Origin: Hydrogenophaga sp.
Lineage (GTDB): Bacteria; Pseudomonadota; Gammaproteobacteria; Burkholderiales; Burkholderiaceae_C
Assembly (NCBI RefSeq): GCF_030651625.1
Contig: NZ_JAUSCF010000022.1
Span: 62,001 to 126,000, forward strand
Reading direction: 5' to 3'
Length of the DNA: 64,000 nt
The notes beneath the pieces were generated by a model that searched no databases, was not told the origin of the DNA, and saw nothing but the letters and a program-made list of their open reading frames with translations. Made by a program: the position numbers and the translations under genes. Shown here piece by piece: positions 1-26,950 of this stretch; the first letter of the stretch is position 1, and each line of letters begins with the position of its first letter.

Positions 1-1718
1 GCGATCAGCTCCAGCGCTGGCAAGGCGGCTCGCTGCCAGAACTCGAGTTCAAGCCACTGCGCCTTCAGAACGGCTGGTATGTGCAGCGCTTCGCACCCAT
101 GCTGCGCGTGGCTGTGCCTTACGGTGAGCTCTCCAGTGCCCAGATTCGTGTACTGGCCAAGATCGCGCGCGACTTTGATCACAAGGAAGCAAACGACACC
201 TCGAACGCCAACGCGGGCCTGTCCGAGGTGCCCACGCTGCCCGACCGCTGCGCCCACTTCACCACGCGCCAGAACGTGCAATACAACTGGATTCCGCTGG
301 CCCGCTCGGCCGACGTGATGGACCTGCTGGCGAGCGTGAACATGCACGGCATCCAGACCAGCGGGAACTGCATCCGCAACATCACCACCGACGCACTGGC
401 AGGCATCGCGGTGGACGAAGTCGCCGACCCGCGCCCGTTTGCGGAAATTATGCGCCAGTGGAGCACACTGCACCCCGAGTTCGCCTTTCTCCCCCGCAAG
501 TTCAAAATTGCCATCACCGGCGCGCGCGAAGACCGGGCGGCCACCGCCTGGCACGACGTGGGCCTTCGCCTGCTGCGCAATGTTGACGGCGACCTGGGCT
601 TCCAGGTGCGCGTAGGTGGCGGCATGGGACGCACCCCTATCATTGGTGCGGTCGTTCGCGAGTTCCTGCCCTGGAACCAGATCCTGAACTACCTCGAAGC
701 CGTGGTGCGCGCCTACAACCGCTTCGGCCGCCGCGACAACATCTACAAGGCCCGCATCAAGATCCTGGTGAAGGCCGAAGGCCAGGCGTTTGTGGACCAG
801 GTGGAAGCCGAATACGCCGACATCCTGGAGAAAGATGGCGCGCCACACACCATCACCCAGGCCGAGCTTGACCGCGTGAACGCCTTCTTTGTGCCACCTG
901 CGCTGCAGTGCGATCGCAAGAGCGCCGACGCCAAGATCGCGCACATCCTGAAGGCGGCGGCAGAAGACGACATGGAGTTCAGCCGCTGGCTGACCCAGAA
1001 CGTCAAGCCGCACCAGAATCCCGATTTGCGTGCCGTGACGCTGTCTTTCAAACGACTGGGACAGGCCCCGGGCGACGCCACGGCCGAGCAACTGGATCGA
1101 GCCGCTGAACTGGTCGACAAGTTCTCCGCAGGTGAAGCCCGCGTCACCCACGAACAGAACCTGCTGTTGCCATGGGTTCGTTGCGACCAGTTGCCCGAAC
1201 TCTGGCGAGAAGCGCGCCGCCTCGGCCTGGCCAAGCCCAACATCGGCTTGCTGACCGACATGATCGCCTGCCCCGGTGGTGACTTCTGCGACCTCGCCAA
1301 CGCGCGCTCGCTGCCACTCGCGCAAGCCATCCTGGGCCGCTACACGGACCTCGACGAGCTGCACGACCTGGGCGAAATCGACCTGCACATCAGTGGCTGC
1401 ATCAACTCTTGCGGCCACCATCACAGCGGCCACATCGGCATCCTGGGCGTCGACAAGGACGGCCAGGAGTGGTACCAGATCACGCTGGGCGGCTCGGACG
1501 GCACGCGCCTGTCGGGCGAATCCGTGCCCGGCAAAGTGGTGGGGCCTTCGTTCGCAGCCAGTGAAGTGCCCGACGTGATCGAGGCCCTGCTCGACACCTA
1601 CCGCGCCACCCGCGCAGACGGCGAAACCTTCATTGGCACGCTTCGCCGAGCCGGCCCTGACGCATTCAAGAGCGCCGCCAACGCGGTGCGCACCCACACC
1701 GCACGCGCTGCCGCTTGA
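1..1718 (+). CDS. cysI: Siroheme/4Fe-4S nitrite/sulfite reductase, 5' end cut by window
   Basis: Hemoprotein that reduces sulfite to sulfide with six electrons in assimilatory sulfate reduction. The reading frame is open from base 3, so the true start lies upstream; the GTG at 81 is internal, and numbering here is from it. The four Cys ligands of the coupled 4Fe-4S/siroheme centre are visible: C397 and C403 in IACPGGDFCD, C440 and C444 in SGCINSCGHH. No CysJ-type flavoprotein gene is nearby, while a ferredoxin and a ferredoxin reductase lie downstream, so ferredoxin is the probable donor (inference). It is followed after 11 bp by the DUF934 gene. A nitrite reductase role cannot be excluded from sequence, but the cysHDN context favours sulfite. 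Confidence 0.93.
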   Translation, partial: DQLQRWQGGSLPELEFKPLRLQNGWYVQRFAPMLRVAVPYGELSSAQIRVLAKIARDFDHKEANDTSNANAGLSEVPTLPDRCAHFTTRQNVQYNWIPLARSADVMDLLASVNMHGIQTSGNCIRNITTDALAGIAVDEVADPRPFAEIMRQWSTLHPEFAFLPRKFKIAITGAREDRAATAWHDVGLRLLRNVDGDLGFQVRVGGGMGRTPIIGAVVREFLPWNQILNYLEAVVRAYNRFGRRDNIYKARIKILVKAEGQAFVDQVEAEYADILEKDGAPHTITQAELDRVNAFFVPPALQCDRKSADAKIAHILKAAAEDDMEFSRWLTQNVKPHQNPDLRAVTLSFKRLGQAPGDATAEQLDRAAELVDKFSAGEARVTHEQNLLLPWVRCDQLPELWREARRLGLAKPNIGLLTDMIACPGGDFCDLANARSLPLAQAILGRYTDLDELHDLGEIDLHISGCINSCGHHHSGHIGILGVDKDGQEWYQITLGGSDGTRLSGESVPGKVVGPSFAASEVPDVIEALLDTYRATRADGETFIGTLRRAGPDAFKSAANAVRTHTARAAA

Positions 1719-23175: not shown

Positions 23176-24468
23176 TTGACGCGTTCGAATTATGTCACCC
23201 GGGTCTTTTCCTCGCCGATGGAGGTGCCGTCGGGAAGCTGGAATGAGCTGCTGAAACACGAAGCGGACCCCAGCCCCTTCATGAAGCACGAGTACCTGGC
23301 GGCGCTGCACCTCAGTGGTAGCGCAGGGCCAGACGCCGGGTGGCAAGCCCAGTTCATGACGCTTTGGCAGGGTGAACGCCTCTGCGCTGCCTGCGCCATG
23401 TATTTGAAGAACCACTCATATGGCGAGTACGTGTTCGACTGGGCCTGGGCCAACGCCTACGACCAGCACGGCCTGGCCTACTACCCCAAGGCCTTGGTGG
23501 CAGTGCCCTTCACCCCGGTGCCCGGGGCACGCTTGCTGGCCGTCGATGCCCATGCCCGGTCGGCTTTGGTGCAGGCTCTGGTGGAGCACGCCAGCCGGGA
23601 AAACCTATCTTCGCTTCACCTGCTTTTCCTGCAAGCCGAAGACGCCAGCGTTTGCAAGGCCAATGGCTTGATGCTGCGCCACACCGTGCAGTTTCATTGG
23701 CAGAACGCTGGAACTGGCTTGGAAAGCCTATCGACTGACGAATCGGATGCGCACGACGTCAAGGCGGCGCCCCATGCAGAGCATGCTTTCATCGCAGGAT
23801 CTTGTCGGTATGCCAGTTTCGGGCATTTCCTAGACAGCCTGCAACAGGAGAAGCGCAAGAAGATCCGCCAGGAACGCAGAAAGGTTGCTGAAGCGGGTGT
23901 GAGCTTTCGCTGGAGCCTGGGTCGCGACATTGAAAAGGCTGACTGGCATTTTTTCTACCGCTGCTACGAACGCACCTACCTGGAACATGGCAACGCGCCC
24001 TACTTGAATCGCGATTTTTTCGATCGCATGTCGCAGACCATGTCGGAAAACTGGTTGCTGTTTGTGGCTGAACAGGCGGGGCAACCAATCGCCTGCAGCC
24101 TCATCGCCATCGATCCGGTCCTGGGCGTGGCCTATGGTCGTTACTGGGGCGCACTGGCCCGGGTGGATTGCCTGCATTTTGAAGCCTGCTATTACCAGCC
24201 AATCGCCTGGTGCATCGAGCACGGCTACATCCGGTTTGAGGGTGGCGCACAAGGCGAACACAAAATGGCCAGAGCGCTGCTGCCCGTCAAAACCACCAGC
24301 GCCCATTGGCTGGCACACCCCTCCTTCGCCGATGCGGTGGAGCGGTTTCTGGCGCGTGAAGGGGAAGGTGTGGATCAGTATGTGCGCCACCTGGAGGCAC
24401 GCAGCCCGGTCAAGCGCGCGTCCCTGGCGCCCAGGCAAATGCCAGGTAGCGGGTCGCAAAATGGTTGA
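23176..24468 (+). CDS. FemAB-like GNAT family protein (PF04339)
   Basis: 430 aa. The start is a TTG at 23176 with a perfect CAGGAG 7 bp upstream; it restores the family's N-terminus (TRVFSSPMEVPSGSWNELL), whereas the first ATG (23218) would cut it. Family motifs include HSYGEYVFDWAWANAYDQHG, LAYYPKALVAVPFTPVPGAR and, in the C-terminal acyltransferase-fold half, FEGGAQGEHKMARALLPV. PF04339 proteins resemble FemAB-type aminoacyl or acyl transferases, but substrates are unknown. It lies 57 bp before a bactofilin gene cluster, so an envelope or peptidoglycan link is possible. Confidence 0.8.
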   Translation: MTRSNYVTRVFSSPMEVPSGSWNELLKHEADPSPFMKHEYLAALHLSGSAGPDAGWQAQFMTLWQGERLCAACAMYLKNHSYGEYVFDWAWANAYDQHGLAYYPKALVAVPFTPVPGARLLAVDAHARSALVQALVEHASRENLSSLHLLFLQAEDASVCKANGLMLRHTVQFHWQNAGTGLESLSTDESDAHDVKAAPHAEHAFIAGSCRYASFGHFLDSLQQEKRKKIRQERRKVAEAGVSFRWSLGRDIEKADWHFFYRCYERTYLEHGNAPYLNRDFFDRMSQTMSENWLLFVAEQAGQPIACSLIAIDPVLGVAYGRYWGALARVDCLHFEACYYQPIAWCIEHGYIRFEGGAQGEHKMARALLPVKTTSAHWLAHPSFADAVERFLAREGEGVDQYVRHLEARSPVKRASLAPRQMPGSGSQNG

Positions 24469-24525: not shown

Positions 24526-24843
24526 ATGAACGAATCGGATGCCTTCTTCACCCAAACCATCGTGGGTGCACCATTTTCCGTGGTGCTCGGTCGGCGCCTC
24601 GGCCCAAAAGAAATGGCTGCGGCGGGCCTCGAAGTCAATCTGAAAACAGGCACGTACGGGCTCAGCGAAACCTGGCAAGACTGGCTCGTGCTGGACCACA
24701 CCACAGACAAACCCGGCCGGACCCGGCGGTTGCCTGGCAAGGGCCGTCTCTGGATGGAGCGGCATGCTCTGTGGCTGGCCTGGTTTGGCTTGCTTTCCCT
24801 GCTGGCTTCCGGTGCTTTCTGGGCATTGCAGTCATGGCTCTGA
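24526..24843 (+). CDS. Hypothetical tail-anchored membrane protein in bactofilin cluster
   Basis: 105 aa. A soluble N-terminal region (about 1-80, basic toward its end: GRTRRLPGKGRLWMERH) is followed by one hydrophobic helix at about 81-103 that ends at the C-terminus. I do not recognise a domain. No ribosome site precedes the ATG; a TACACT -10-like box lies only 8 bp upstream, so a leaderless transcript is possible. The last 10 bp overlap the next bactofilin gene, implying coupled translation and a shared job, perhaps a membrane anchor for the filament. Confidence 0.7.
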   Translation: MNESDAFFTQTIVGAPFSVVLGRRLGPKEMAAAGLEVNLKTGTYGLSETWQDWLVLDHTTDKPGRTRRLPGKGRLWMERHALWLAWFGLLSLLASGAFWALQSWL

Positions 24844-25274
24844 AGACACCCCAAGACACCCTCACCCTCGATCCGGTGGCCATGAATGTGGTCAACCGGG
24901 TGGCCGCTGGCAGCCAACTGGGTGGAGAGCTTCGCTTCGATGGCGGTCTGCTGGTGCAAGGCGATTTGTCCGGGCTCCTGCACGTCAATGGCAATCTCAT
25001 CGTCTGGACCGGCGGGGTCGTCAGGGGCCGCATCCGTGTCACCGGCGATCTGTACCTCTTTGGTCGCCTGGGCTCGCCAGACGCAGGCCCCAACGCCACC
25101 ACGCTGGAATGCCAAGGCATGGCCTACGTGGCGAACTCGGGCATCTCCACGGGCACATTGATGGCCCGCCGCCTGCAGCTTTACGAGGGTGCCGACTTGC
25201 AAGGACCGTTCAAGACGCTCAAACTGGGTGACAAACTGCCCGTGCTGCACGACGTTCACACAGGCAAGAGCTGA
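24834..25274 (+). CDS. Bactofilin (first of three)
   Basis: 146 aa from the ATG at 24834. Polymer-forming cytoskeletal protein with the repetitive beta-helical bactofilin (DUF583) core at about residues 22-128: regularly spaced Gly/hydrophobic turns such as FDGGLLVQGDLSGLLHVNG. It lacks the hydrophobic N-terminal membrane tag of canonical bactofilins. It overlaps the membrane-protein gene before it by 10 bp, and its TGA overlaps the next bactofilin ATG (TGATG). Confidence 0.85.
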   Translation: MALKTPQDTLTLDPVAMNVVNRVAAGSQLGGELRFDGGLLVQGDLSGLLHVNGNLIVWTGGVVRGRIRVTGDLYLFGRLGSPDAGPNATTLECQGMAYVANSGISTGTLMARRLQLYEGADLQGPFKTLKLGDKLPVLHDVHTGKS

Positions 25275-25900
25275 TGAAATCCCAACGCTACCTGCACCCC
25301 GACCGCCACCTTGAACAGGACCAGGAAGACCCCGACATGAACGACCAGTTTACGCAGAACAACCCGTCCGACCAGAACGATCGACACACTGGCGATGAGG
25401 GCTACCAGCCAGACCAACAGGACCCTCAGGACCAACCGGCCACCCAGATGGAAGTGGATGTGGGCAATGCCATGCCACCTTCGCAACCCTCGAATCTGCC
25501 GCTGCTCCAGCCGGAGCCACAAACCCTGCCCATGCTGGATGCACAGGAAGCAGGCGCAGCTCGCAGCATGGTGGCAGAAGGCATGCGGTTTGTCGGCAAT
25601 GCAGAGCTCCGCGGGCCGTGCAGCATTGGCGGGCACATTGAAGGCAACATCAAGCAAGCGCCGAATGTGCAGGTGGCTGTGGTGGTGACCGAGTCTGGGC
25701 GTGTCAAGGGCGACATCACCGCGCACAAGATTTCAGTCATGGGTCACACGGACGGCATTCTCGATTCGGGCCAGGGTGAGGTGTCGCTGCACGACACGGC
25801 CAGTGTGCATGGGCTGGTGCGCTATGGCCGCATCCAGGTCAATGGCGCTGACCTCAACGCCACGCTGGAGCGGGCCACACCTTCGGCACCGCAGAACTGA
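25274..25900 (+). CDS. Bactofilin with long Gln/Pro/Asp-rich N-terminal extension
   Basis: 208 aa. The first 90 or so residues are polar, low-complexity and probably disordered (QPDQQDPQDQPATQ). The bactofilin core follows at about 98-200, starting VAEGMRFVGNAELRGPC and including HIEGNIKQAPNVQVAVVVTE. The sequence is clearly different from the bactofilins on either side. The start codon overlaps the preceding stop; an ATG at 25337 (MNDQFTQ) is an alternative start. Its acidic tail contrasts with the basic juxtamembrane regions of the two interleaved membrane proteins, so contact is possible (inference). Confidence 0.85.
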   Translation: MKSQRYLHPDRHLEQDQEDPDMNDQFTQNNPSDQNDRHTGDEGYQPDQQDPQDQPATQMEVDVGNAMPPSQPSNLPLLQPEPQTLPMLDAQEAGAARSMVAEGMRFVGNAELRGPCSIGGHIEGNIKQAPNVQVAVVVTESGRVKGDITAHKISVMGHTDGILDSGQGEVSLHDTASVHGLVRYGRIQVNGADLNATLERATPSAPQN

Positions 25901-25918
25901 CTGGTCTGATCAGATTCC

Positions 25919-26482
25919 ATGCCGTGGACAAGCGCCGTCCAGACCGTCGAGATGACGGAAAACGCACCCCTGCCAGATTCCGAGCGGATCCGTCGCGAAG
26001 CCTTGCAACGAAGCTGGCAGCGCGACAAGAAAGTGAGCGCCCGGCGGTTGAAGATTCGATGGGCAGTCTGGGCGCTTTGCCGGTACGGGTTGCCGCTGCT
26101 TTTTGTCCTGGGAACGGCCATCGCGGTGTCAATCTGGGGACTTCCGCAGCTTCGAACCGCGCTCACAACGTTGACCGGCCCGATGGCTTCTCCGACAGTG
26201 AATGTGGGGCCAACCAGCGGCCTTCCGGCGCCATCACCGGCATCGATCGGTCTATCCATCGACCTGCCGCCTGCTGGCAAGCAAGAGCGCAGCGAGATGA
26301 CGCCAGCGCAGCCGGGTCAAAGTGATGATGATCAAGGCCCCATCCAACTGCGCCCCGAAAGCAGCTTCCCCTCTTCAAACCATGGTGACCATGGCCAAAC
26401 CGGCCCTGACGACATCGACACAACGACCACCCTCAACCCCGTACGCACGCCCGACAACGGGTCGCACAGCAAGGAGCCTTGA
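25919..26482 (+). CDS. Hypothetical single-pass membrane protein in bactofilin cluster
   Basis: 187 aa from the ATG at 25919 (an ATG at 25952, MTENAP, is an alternative). A charged, helical N-terminus (SERIRREALQRSWQRDKKVS) is followed by one membrane helix at about 49-73 and then a Pro/Ser/Thr/Asp-rich, probably disordered C-terminal tail of about 110 residues. By the positive-inside rule the basic N-terminus is cytoplasmic and the tail periplasmic. No domain is recognised. It is placed between two bactofilin genes with 18 bp and 3 bp gaps, which suggests a filament anchor or a link to the cell wall. Confidence 0.7.
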   Translation: MPWTSAVQTVEMTENAPLPDSERIRREALQRSWQRDKKVSARRLKIRWAVWALCRYGLPLLFVLGTAIAVSIWGLPQLRTALTTLTGPMASPTVNVGPTSGLPAPSPASIGLSIDLPPAGKQERSEMTPAQPGQSDDDQGPIQLRPESSFPSSNHGDHGQTGPDDIDTTTTLNPVRTPDNGSHSKEP

Positions 26483-26485
26483 TCC

Positions 26486-26890
26486 ATGAGTCAGAACCCC
26501 ACCGCCACCCGACTGGTTCCCGTCGACCGCCTCACGGCCATCACCAGCCTGATCGCCGAAGGCGCCGTGTTCGAAGGCAACTTCCACACCTCAAGCGACC
26601 AGGGCATCAAGGTCGATGGCCGGCTTCTGGGCAACATCACTTTTGAATCCGGAGGTACCCTTCATGTCGGCGCCACCGGCGTGATTGAAAACACCCGCCT
26701 GGAGGCCGACTACGTGTTCATCGAGGGCAAGGTGGTCGGTACCGTGATTGCACGCAAATCACTGGAGATCACGGGTTCGGCCACGCTGATCGGAGACGCA
26801 AGCTACGACGATCTGATCGACATGCATCCGCGTGCGCGGGTGCGCGGCAAGATCGAATACCGCGGTGATATCGACGCAGAGCAACGCTGA
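26486..26890 (+). CDS. Bactofilin (third, most canonical)
   Basis: 134 aa. The bactofilin core covers about residues 22-125: SLIAEGAVFEGNFHTSSDQG, KVDGRLLGNITFESGG, then the ADYVFIEGKVVGTV repeat and the typical PRARVRGKIEYRGD ending. It resembles single-gene bactofilins (CcmA/BacA-like) more than its two neighbours do. The start lies 3 bp after the preceding stop, with AGGAG inside the end of that gene. Last gene before a strong terminator. Confidence 0.9.
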   Translation: MSQNPTATRLVPVDRLTAITSLIAEGAVFEGNFHTSSDQGIKVDGRLLGNITFESGGTLHVGATGVIENTRLEADYVFIEGKVVGTVIARKSLEITGSATLIGDASYDDLIDMHPRARVRGKIEYRGDIDAEQR

Positions 26891-26909: not shown

Positions 26910-26950
26910 AAAAAGGGCCTGCCAGGATTACACCCGGCAGGCCCTTTTTT
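26910..26950. terminator. Bidirectional terminator between bactofilin cluster and ppa
   Basis: A perfect 14-bp stem, AAAAAGGGCCTGCC (26910-26923) with GGCAGGCCCTTTTT (26936-26949), and a 12-nt loop. T-runs are present on both strands, so it can end both convergent units. Confidence 0.92.

Follow-up and report, generated by a model that had tools for sequence, protein, structure and literature searches.

How are bactofilins that show no membrane tag of their own held at the membrane? The typical bactofilin carries either an N-terminal membrane-targeting sequence (MTS, MFSKKKK-like) or an N-terminal transmembrane helix, and how tag-less bactofilins reach the membrane and choose their partners is, to our knowledge, known for few cases. 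The question is raised by a locus of Hydrogenophaga sp. located in the stretch of DNA analysed here (64,000 nucleotides, referred to as the window), in which a sequence-only reading had described three different bactofilins and two single-pass membrane proteins in one tight unit and had proposed that they form a hetero-bactofilin scaffold with dedicated membrane anchors. The five genes are a real and conserved module, and the fact that relatives mostly retain or lack the membrane genes jointly with their bactofilins points, as far as comparison of sequences can tell, to an undescribed scaffold at the cell membrane.

Organization of the locus

The module is encoded on the + strand and comprises, in this order, TA105 (24526-24843; 105 aa, tail-anchored, the candidate anchor docking bac1), bac1 (24834-25274; 146 aa), bac2 (25274-25900; 208 aa, with a long N-terminal tail), TM187 (25919-26482; 187 aa, bitopic, with a basic N-terminal helix that runs into one membrane helix) and bac3 (26486-26890; 134 aa). 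The open reading frames (ORFs) of TA105 and bac1 overlap by 10 bp and those of bac1 and bac2 by 1 bp, and gaps of 18 and 3 bp separate bac2 from TM187 and TM187 from bac3, respectively, exactly as given earlier. The five proteins probably come from the same transcript. All three bactofilins contain the PF04519 domain above its curated cut-off of 27.9 bits (bac1 39.7, bac2 58.4 and bac3 62.9 bits), which together with the ORFs confirms the composition of the unit. TA105 and TM187 belong to no Pfam or NCBIfam family at E-values up to 1. The module genes had also been said to include no peptidase, and a Pfam scan of the five genes and their FemAB-like neighbor indeed contained no M23 domain.

A terminator-like hairpin (26910-26949, no strand assigned; fold -28.4 kcal/mol) lies between bac3 and the convergent ppa gene. 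It consists of 14 + 2 pairs and a T run, and was recognized by folding and a shuffle test (z -5.3, 0 of 200 shuffles as good), having been overlooked by an earlier consensus scan. A consensus promoter scan at the locus found no promoter. The upstream flank is formed by the FemAB-like gene (23176-24468, + strand; PF04339, 437.6 bits), which lies outside the module.

Conservation within Hydrogenophaga

The 67 genomes of the genus provided a sample of 56 loci, 40 of them with a TA105 match and 16 located through the FemAB gene; left out were four genomes with a TA105 match (G006, G026, G043 and G052), six without a FemAB match and the genome of the window itself. The complete order TA105-bac1-bac2-TM187-bac3 occurs at 33 of these loci, 11 contain TA105-bac1 only, and 10 contain none of the genes, FemAB running straight to ppa; the remaining two (L063 and L135) are cut by a contig end. 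Of the 54 uncut loci, 44 have TA105 together with bac1 and 10 have neither; 33 have bac2, TM187 and bac3, and the other 21 have none of these three, counts that track shared ancestry and represent few independent events. The membrane genes thus travel with their bactofilins within the genus, as proposed, TA105 with bac1 and TM187 with bac2 and bac3. Whole-genome searches did not find TM187 in the two-gene genomes (10 of 11 covered, G350 not among them), nor TA105 or TM187 in the empty ones (8 of 10 covered, G348 and G352 not among them). The module can be divided into the sub-units TA105-bac1 and bac2-TM187-bac3, of which the latter is either wholly present or wholly absent. A tree built from the flanking genes (52 rows with at least three of the four genes) requires 6 changes among the three locus states, the empty state occurring in three places and the two-gene state in three, a count that weak branches make approximate. 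Most of the named contigs with a TA105 relative belong to Hydrogenophaga, and the module is present at two loci of H. pseudoflava (L083 and L085).

Relatives outside the genus

The bac1 lineage is present in 19 of 349 family genomes and 9 of 126 genera, with profile matches that are all-or-nothing (E 2e-52 to 2e-74), and in 2 of 300 genomes drawn from the order, both of them of the genus (at E 1e-12). Fourteen of the 19 genomes belong to other genera, and in 12 of these (L105-L110, L113-L117 and L160) the five genes stand in order, so that this order is found across 9 genera including Hydrogenophaga. Together with the 33 of 56 genus loci, these genomes uphold the expected conservation of the gene order in relatives. 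The flanking genes nadE, FemAB, ppa and hppA were not found in the stretches taken, some of them short, around 11 of the 12 outside five-gene loci, which indicates that the module also occupies other sites; the exception, L109, contains ppa and hppA. The FemAB gene was rejected as a module member because it is present without the module at 10 loci (located via FemAB itself), and its membership is also disfavored by the fact that it was not found next to any of the 12 loci with all five genes in other genera. Against the genus profiles, TA105 scores 17-30 bits and TM187 17-66 bits in the most distant genera, and the naming of both proteins there rests on position, motif and topology together.

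The expectation that the membrane genes are never missing where the bactofilins stay did not hold. G261 keeps the three bactofilins and TA105, with TM187 not seen, and G649 (L159) has bac1 alone within the 12 kb taken. The proposal of a hetero-bactofilin scaffold with dedicated anchors is thereby partly supported: the conserved module and the co-retention speak for it, and G261 and G649 against it. The lone bac1 of G649 carries VVGDALHVPFG in its own N-terminal tail, and the N-terminal pattern described below, when widened to fit this stretch, has 2 matches in 1,059,788 background residues.

The three bactofilins

MTS-like N-termini were searched for with a simple author-made pattern and were found in 0 of 35 bac1, 0 of 29 bac2 and 0 of 30 bac3 sequences, in agreement with the earlier statement that these bactofilins have no N-terminal tag. 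The highest 19-residue hydropathy in their first 60 residues is 1.41, 0.97 and 1.19 for bac1, bac2 and bac3, respectively, and the N-terminal feature of typical bactofilins is not seen. The source genome contains two further bactofilins elsewhere, and its canonical copy begins with the tag-like MFNKKKQ. This gene stands immediately behind a DUF6776 gene (L119, 4625-5774), and one gene further, on the opposite strand, is an M23 peptidase gene; an M23 gene of this genome is thus near a separate MTS-bearing bactofilin and not in the module. Five genomes of the genus (G347, G048, G351, G057 and G032) have 8 to 11 bactofilin matches each, compared with at most 6 in the others.

The N-terminus of bac2 is basic (MK...) in 9 of the 12 sequences listed, and such an N-terminus could bind the membrane unaided. 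The otherwise variable bac2 tail also contains a conserved stretch, (V/I)x(V/L/M)GxAMP...PxL, which a regular expression finds in 25 of 29 loci and which looks like a second short binding motif. The same stretch is visible by eye in sequences from outside the genus.

On a tree of 64 bactofilins, parts of which are unsure because of long branches, bac1 and bac2 each form a branch of their own (support 100/93 and 97/92, respectively), and bac3 forms a single, weak branch (67/14) near long-branched canonical copies. Sequences of bac1 from different genera hold together on one supported branch, and so do those of bac2, so that the trio is old; the two lineages are separate and deep and did not arise as recent tandem copies.

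The membrane proteins TA105 and TM187

A single hydrophobic helix lies at the C-terminus of TA105 (hydropathy window 83-101) and is modelled at residues 72-104 as a block with pLDDT 84-95, whereas residues 5-21 have a pLDDT below 50; the models of both TA105 and TM187 are of low confidence outside the helices. The TA105 N-terminus carries the conserved motif FFTQTIVGAPFSVVLG, and the first 22 residues contain all 5 positions that are invariant in a 21-row cross-genus alignment. These residues are also the least ordered part of the model, and being conserved yet unstructured they would suit a docking peptide. An LmdC-like beta-hairpin at this N-terminus was considered and rejected, since the model shows none. 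TA105 matches occur in 45 of 100 genomes including its own, all within the genus and all 45 without internal stops, with 23-92% identity to the copy of the window in the rows aligned. A weak match in G134 (E 1.2e-4) was judged false because no other module gene lies around it.

TM187 is modelled as one helix (residues 21-86; hydropathy window 57-75) followed by a low-confidence tail, and has matches in 33 of 100 genomes including its own, 4 of the 33 with one or two internal stops; a weak match in G296 (E 9.9e-4, two internal stops) was likewise judged false, with no other module gene around. The protein keeps the basic helix entering the membrane, and the length of its tail ranges from none to more than 100 residues. 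Four of the 30 TM187 genes from genus and near-genus loci (L084, L086, L089 and L096) stop directly behind the membrane helix, and in L160 a stop follows soon after the helix. Of the single helix and long disordered tail initially described, the helix therefore stands, but the tail is not conserved and is, to judge from these sequences, variable and dispensable. The C-terminal PENWLHSKE of TM187 was rejected as a protein motif in the main reading, because the corresponding DNA, AAACCCGAAAACTGGTTGCACAGCAAGGAG, persists past the TM187 stop in L092 and ends in the likely bac3 Shine-Dalgarno sequence, and because the tail is absent in the four loci named above. The DNA at the end of TM187 (26446-26488 of the window) is conserved as the bac3 ribosome-binding region, and bac3 is probably translated from the AAGGAG inside it.

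According to the positive-inside rule, the more basic side of a membrane helix is the cytoplasmic one. Of the proteins scored, 34 of 34 TA105 and 27 of 28 TM187 are more basic on the N-terminal side of the hydrophobic window, by which both proteins are predicted to have their N-terminus inside.

Proposed readings: a membrane-held scaffold or a set of clients

Since no tag is seen on bac1, bac2 or bac3, the simplest reading is that TA105 and TM187 are the anchors. The model that we favor, and hold to be probable although by no means assured, is a self-contained hetero-bactofilin scaffold that is held at the membrane by TA105, which docks bac1, and by TM187. In this model TA105 would be an inner-membrane protein with a cytoplasmic N-terminus, whose first ~22 residues would dock bac1 filaments, in the way that residues 1-13 of PbpC dock BacA and Csd5 docks CcmA. 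Bac2 and bac3 would co-assemble with bac1, and TM187 would anchor the bac2/bac3 part of the scaffold through its basic N-terminal helix, the dedicated anchors thus replacing the N-terminal tag of the bactofilins. Candidate cellular jobs are shape, polar or envelope patterning and DNA positioning.

The same genes would also allow the reverse dependence, to which we give a rather low probability, in which the bactofilins reach the membrane otherwise, by self-affinity or through the basic bac2 tail, and TA105 and TM187 are localized clients or regulators, e.g., modulators of envelope synthesis. G261, which keeps all three bactofilins without TM187, and the basic bac2 N-termini (9 of 12 listed) agree with such an arrangement, as does the precedent that known partners such as PbpC are clients, PbpC being dispensable for BacA placement at native levels (PMC12448750). 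However, neither TA105 nor TM187 has a known domain, the usual tag is absent from all three bactofilins, and none of the 54 uncut genus loci has TA105 but not bac1. The interest of the module lies in the fact that the anchored scaffold is testable at once: it is a compact and genetically separable set of two candidate anchors and three filament proteins, with species that carry all five genes, two of them or none, and the candidate docking peptide is open to direct test.

Plasmid relatives and a candidate shared N-terminal motif

Genes similar to bac1 are present on 7 of 72,556 plasmid records, with Comamonadaceae as the host family: two records of Hydrogenophaga PBL-H3 and one each of Hydrogenophaga BPS33, Polaromonas JS666, Polaromonas P1-6, Comamonas aquatica and Comamonas testosteroni. 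Both PBL-H3 records and JS666 are typed as conjugative, and the other records are not. A second site on PBL-H3 and JS666 holds a bac2-like gene paired with a bac3-like one, and the plasmid bactofilins group with bac1, bac2 and bac3, respectively, on the 64-sequence tree, for which the program issued a long-branch warning that concerns them. The gene before the plasmid bac1-like gene encodes a larger protein that is otherwise unlike TA105 but shows the same spaced N-terminal pattern in 6 of 6 examined, beginning with stretches such as ITRLVVGEPITIALG or INSAVVGESVVLEMG; in BPS33 the pattern requires an earlier start than annotated, and the P1-6 gene is split. Judged by eye, the membrane stretch of the plasmid proteins lies further along, and the PBL-H3 protein has no Pfam family.

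The statistics for this shared motif are mixed. TA105 used as a query had no match in the plasmid collection, and a hidden Markov model (HMM) of its N-terminus did not single out the plasmid proteins (best -1.8 bits vs. 5.0 for the background). A position-specific scoring matrix (PSSM) of the same N-terminus places 3 of the 6 plasmid proteins above all 3345 background N-termini, their scores being reached by 5 to 39 of 5472 whole background ORFs, and the scores of the other three are reached by 88, 88 and 178 of the 3345 background N-termini. Profile alignment with hhalign (5 plasmid rows) lands exactly on the N-terminal pattern, with an E-value of 0.0033 and a probability of 9.8%. A relaxed regular expression, written after seeing the proteins, fits 6 of 6 of them as read by eye and has 0 matches in 1,059,788 background residues, in which its short core has 3. 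As a tentative proposal that we would not yet rely on, the pattern may be a portable docking peptide, ~h(T/N)xx(I/V)(V/I)Gxxxxhx(L/M)G, with specificity for the bac1 lineage, carried by TA105 for the chromosomal three-bactofilin scaffold of Comamonadaceae and by a larger membrane protein for the plasmids' own platform, in some cases near partition or transfer genes; the lone bac1 of G649 would then bear a similar stretch on itself. If this is true, a cytoskeletal scaffold exists on plasmids too, some of them typed as conjugative.

The plasmid cassettes with the bac1-like gene are those of L157 (3741-8367) and L161-L166. Of the 6 stretches, 3 have a PRTRC ParB-family gene near this bactofilin gene and 2 a TraB-annotated gene; neither was seen in the other 3. 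The Comamonas testosteroni plasmid (L163) has sul1 and IS6100 near its bac1-like cassette. ParB and TraB neighbors agree with a DNA-positioning scaffold similar to BacNOP of Myxococcus, in which the membrane-held filaments would tether the machinery for partition of a chromosome or plasmid, or for transfer. We regard this as unlikely for the module, although it shares with bacNOP, whose products co-assemble and place ParABS (PMC5703909), three distinct bactofilins in one unit, and although PBL-H3 and JS666 bring the bac2-like/bac3-like pair onto plasmids as well: TA105 and TM187 have no ParB domain, half of the plasmid stretches show no ParB or TraB gene, and plasmid and chromosomal roles may differ. 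An ordinary redundant cluster of bactofilin duplicates and hitchhiking small genes without joint function is very improbable, since the lack of all five genes at 10 of 56 genus loci (found through FemAB) and the rarity of the bac1 lineage in the family (19 of 349 genomes searched) are outweighed by the deep separation of bac1 and bac2, by a gene order kept in 9 genera and by TA105 frames open in 45 of 45 genomes at 23-92% identity (rows aligned).

Comparison with known bactofilin systems

The module is a real variant of the bactofilin operon, apparently undescribed in the literature searched: a search by title and abstract opening, outside of which fell most subscription papers and preprints, found no description of the module. 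In Myxococcus xanthus, BacNOP co-assemble and place ParABS (PMC5703909). The BacNOP-PadC system resembles the module in that a putative operon combines three different bactofilins with two more genes, one of them for an adaptor. However, this adaptor, PadC, is ParB-like, whereas the module has two single-pass membrane proteins without a Pfam family, and co-assembly was observed for BacNOP (PMC5703909), whereas a heteropolymer of the bactofilins of the module is a proposal.

In Helicobacter pylori, the cytoplasmic region of Csd5 docks the bactofilin CcmA (PMC9507126). The CcmA-Csd5/Csd7 system has one bactofilin where the module has three, and Csd5 contains an SH3 domain and brings MurF (PMC9507126), whereas TA105 and TM187 are without a Pfam family and have no SH3 domain. 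Recruitment of the Csd5 type, by a cytoplasmic N-terminus, would fit the predicted topology of TA105 and TM187 and the co-conservation.

The BacA-LmdC system is similar to the module in that the bactofilin gene overlaps the gene of a bitopic membrane protein (PMC10945521). The cytoplasmic part of LmdC docks the bactofilin (PMC10945521), and by analogy the same role is proposed for TA105. LmdC is however an M23 peptidase with a predicted beta-hairpin (PMC10945521), whereas the module has no peptidase and the TA105 N-terminus no modelled hairpin.

The BacA-PbpC system of Caulobacter crescentus matches the proposal for TA105 in that a bitopic protein, PbpC, uses a short conserved peptide at its N-terminus (residues 1-13) to dock the polymerized bactofilin BacA, and overproduction of the membrane anchor restores the placement of BacA lacking its MTS (PMC12448750). 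The difference lies in the proteins that carry and receive this peptide, as PbpC is a cell wall synthase and BacA has an MTS of its own (PMC12448750), whereas TA105 consists of little beyond the candidate peptide and an anchor.
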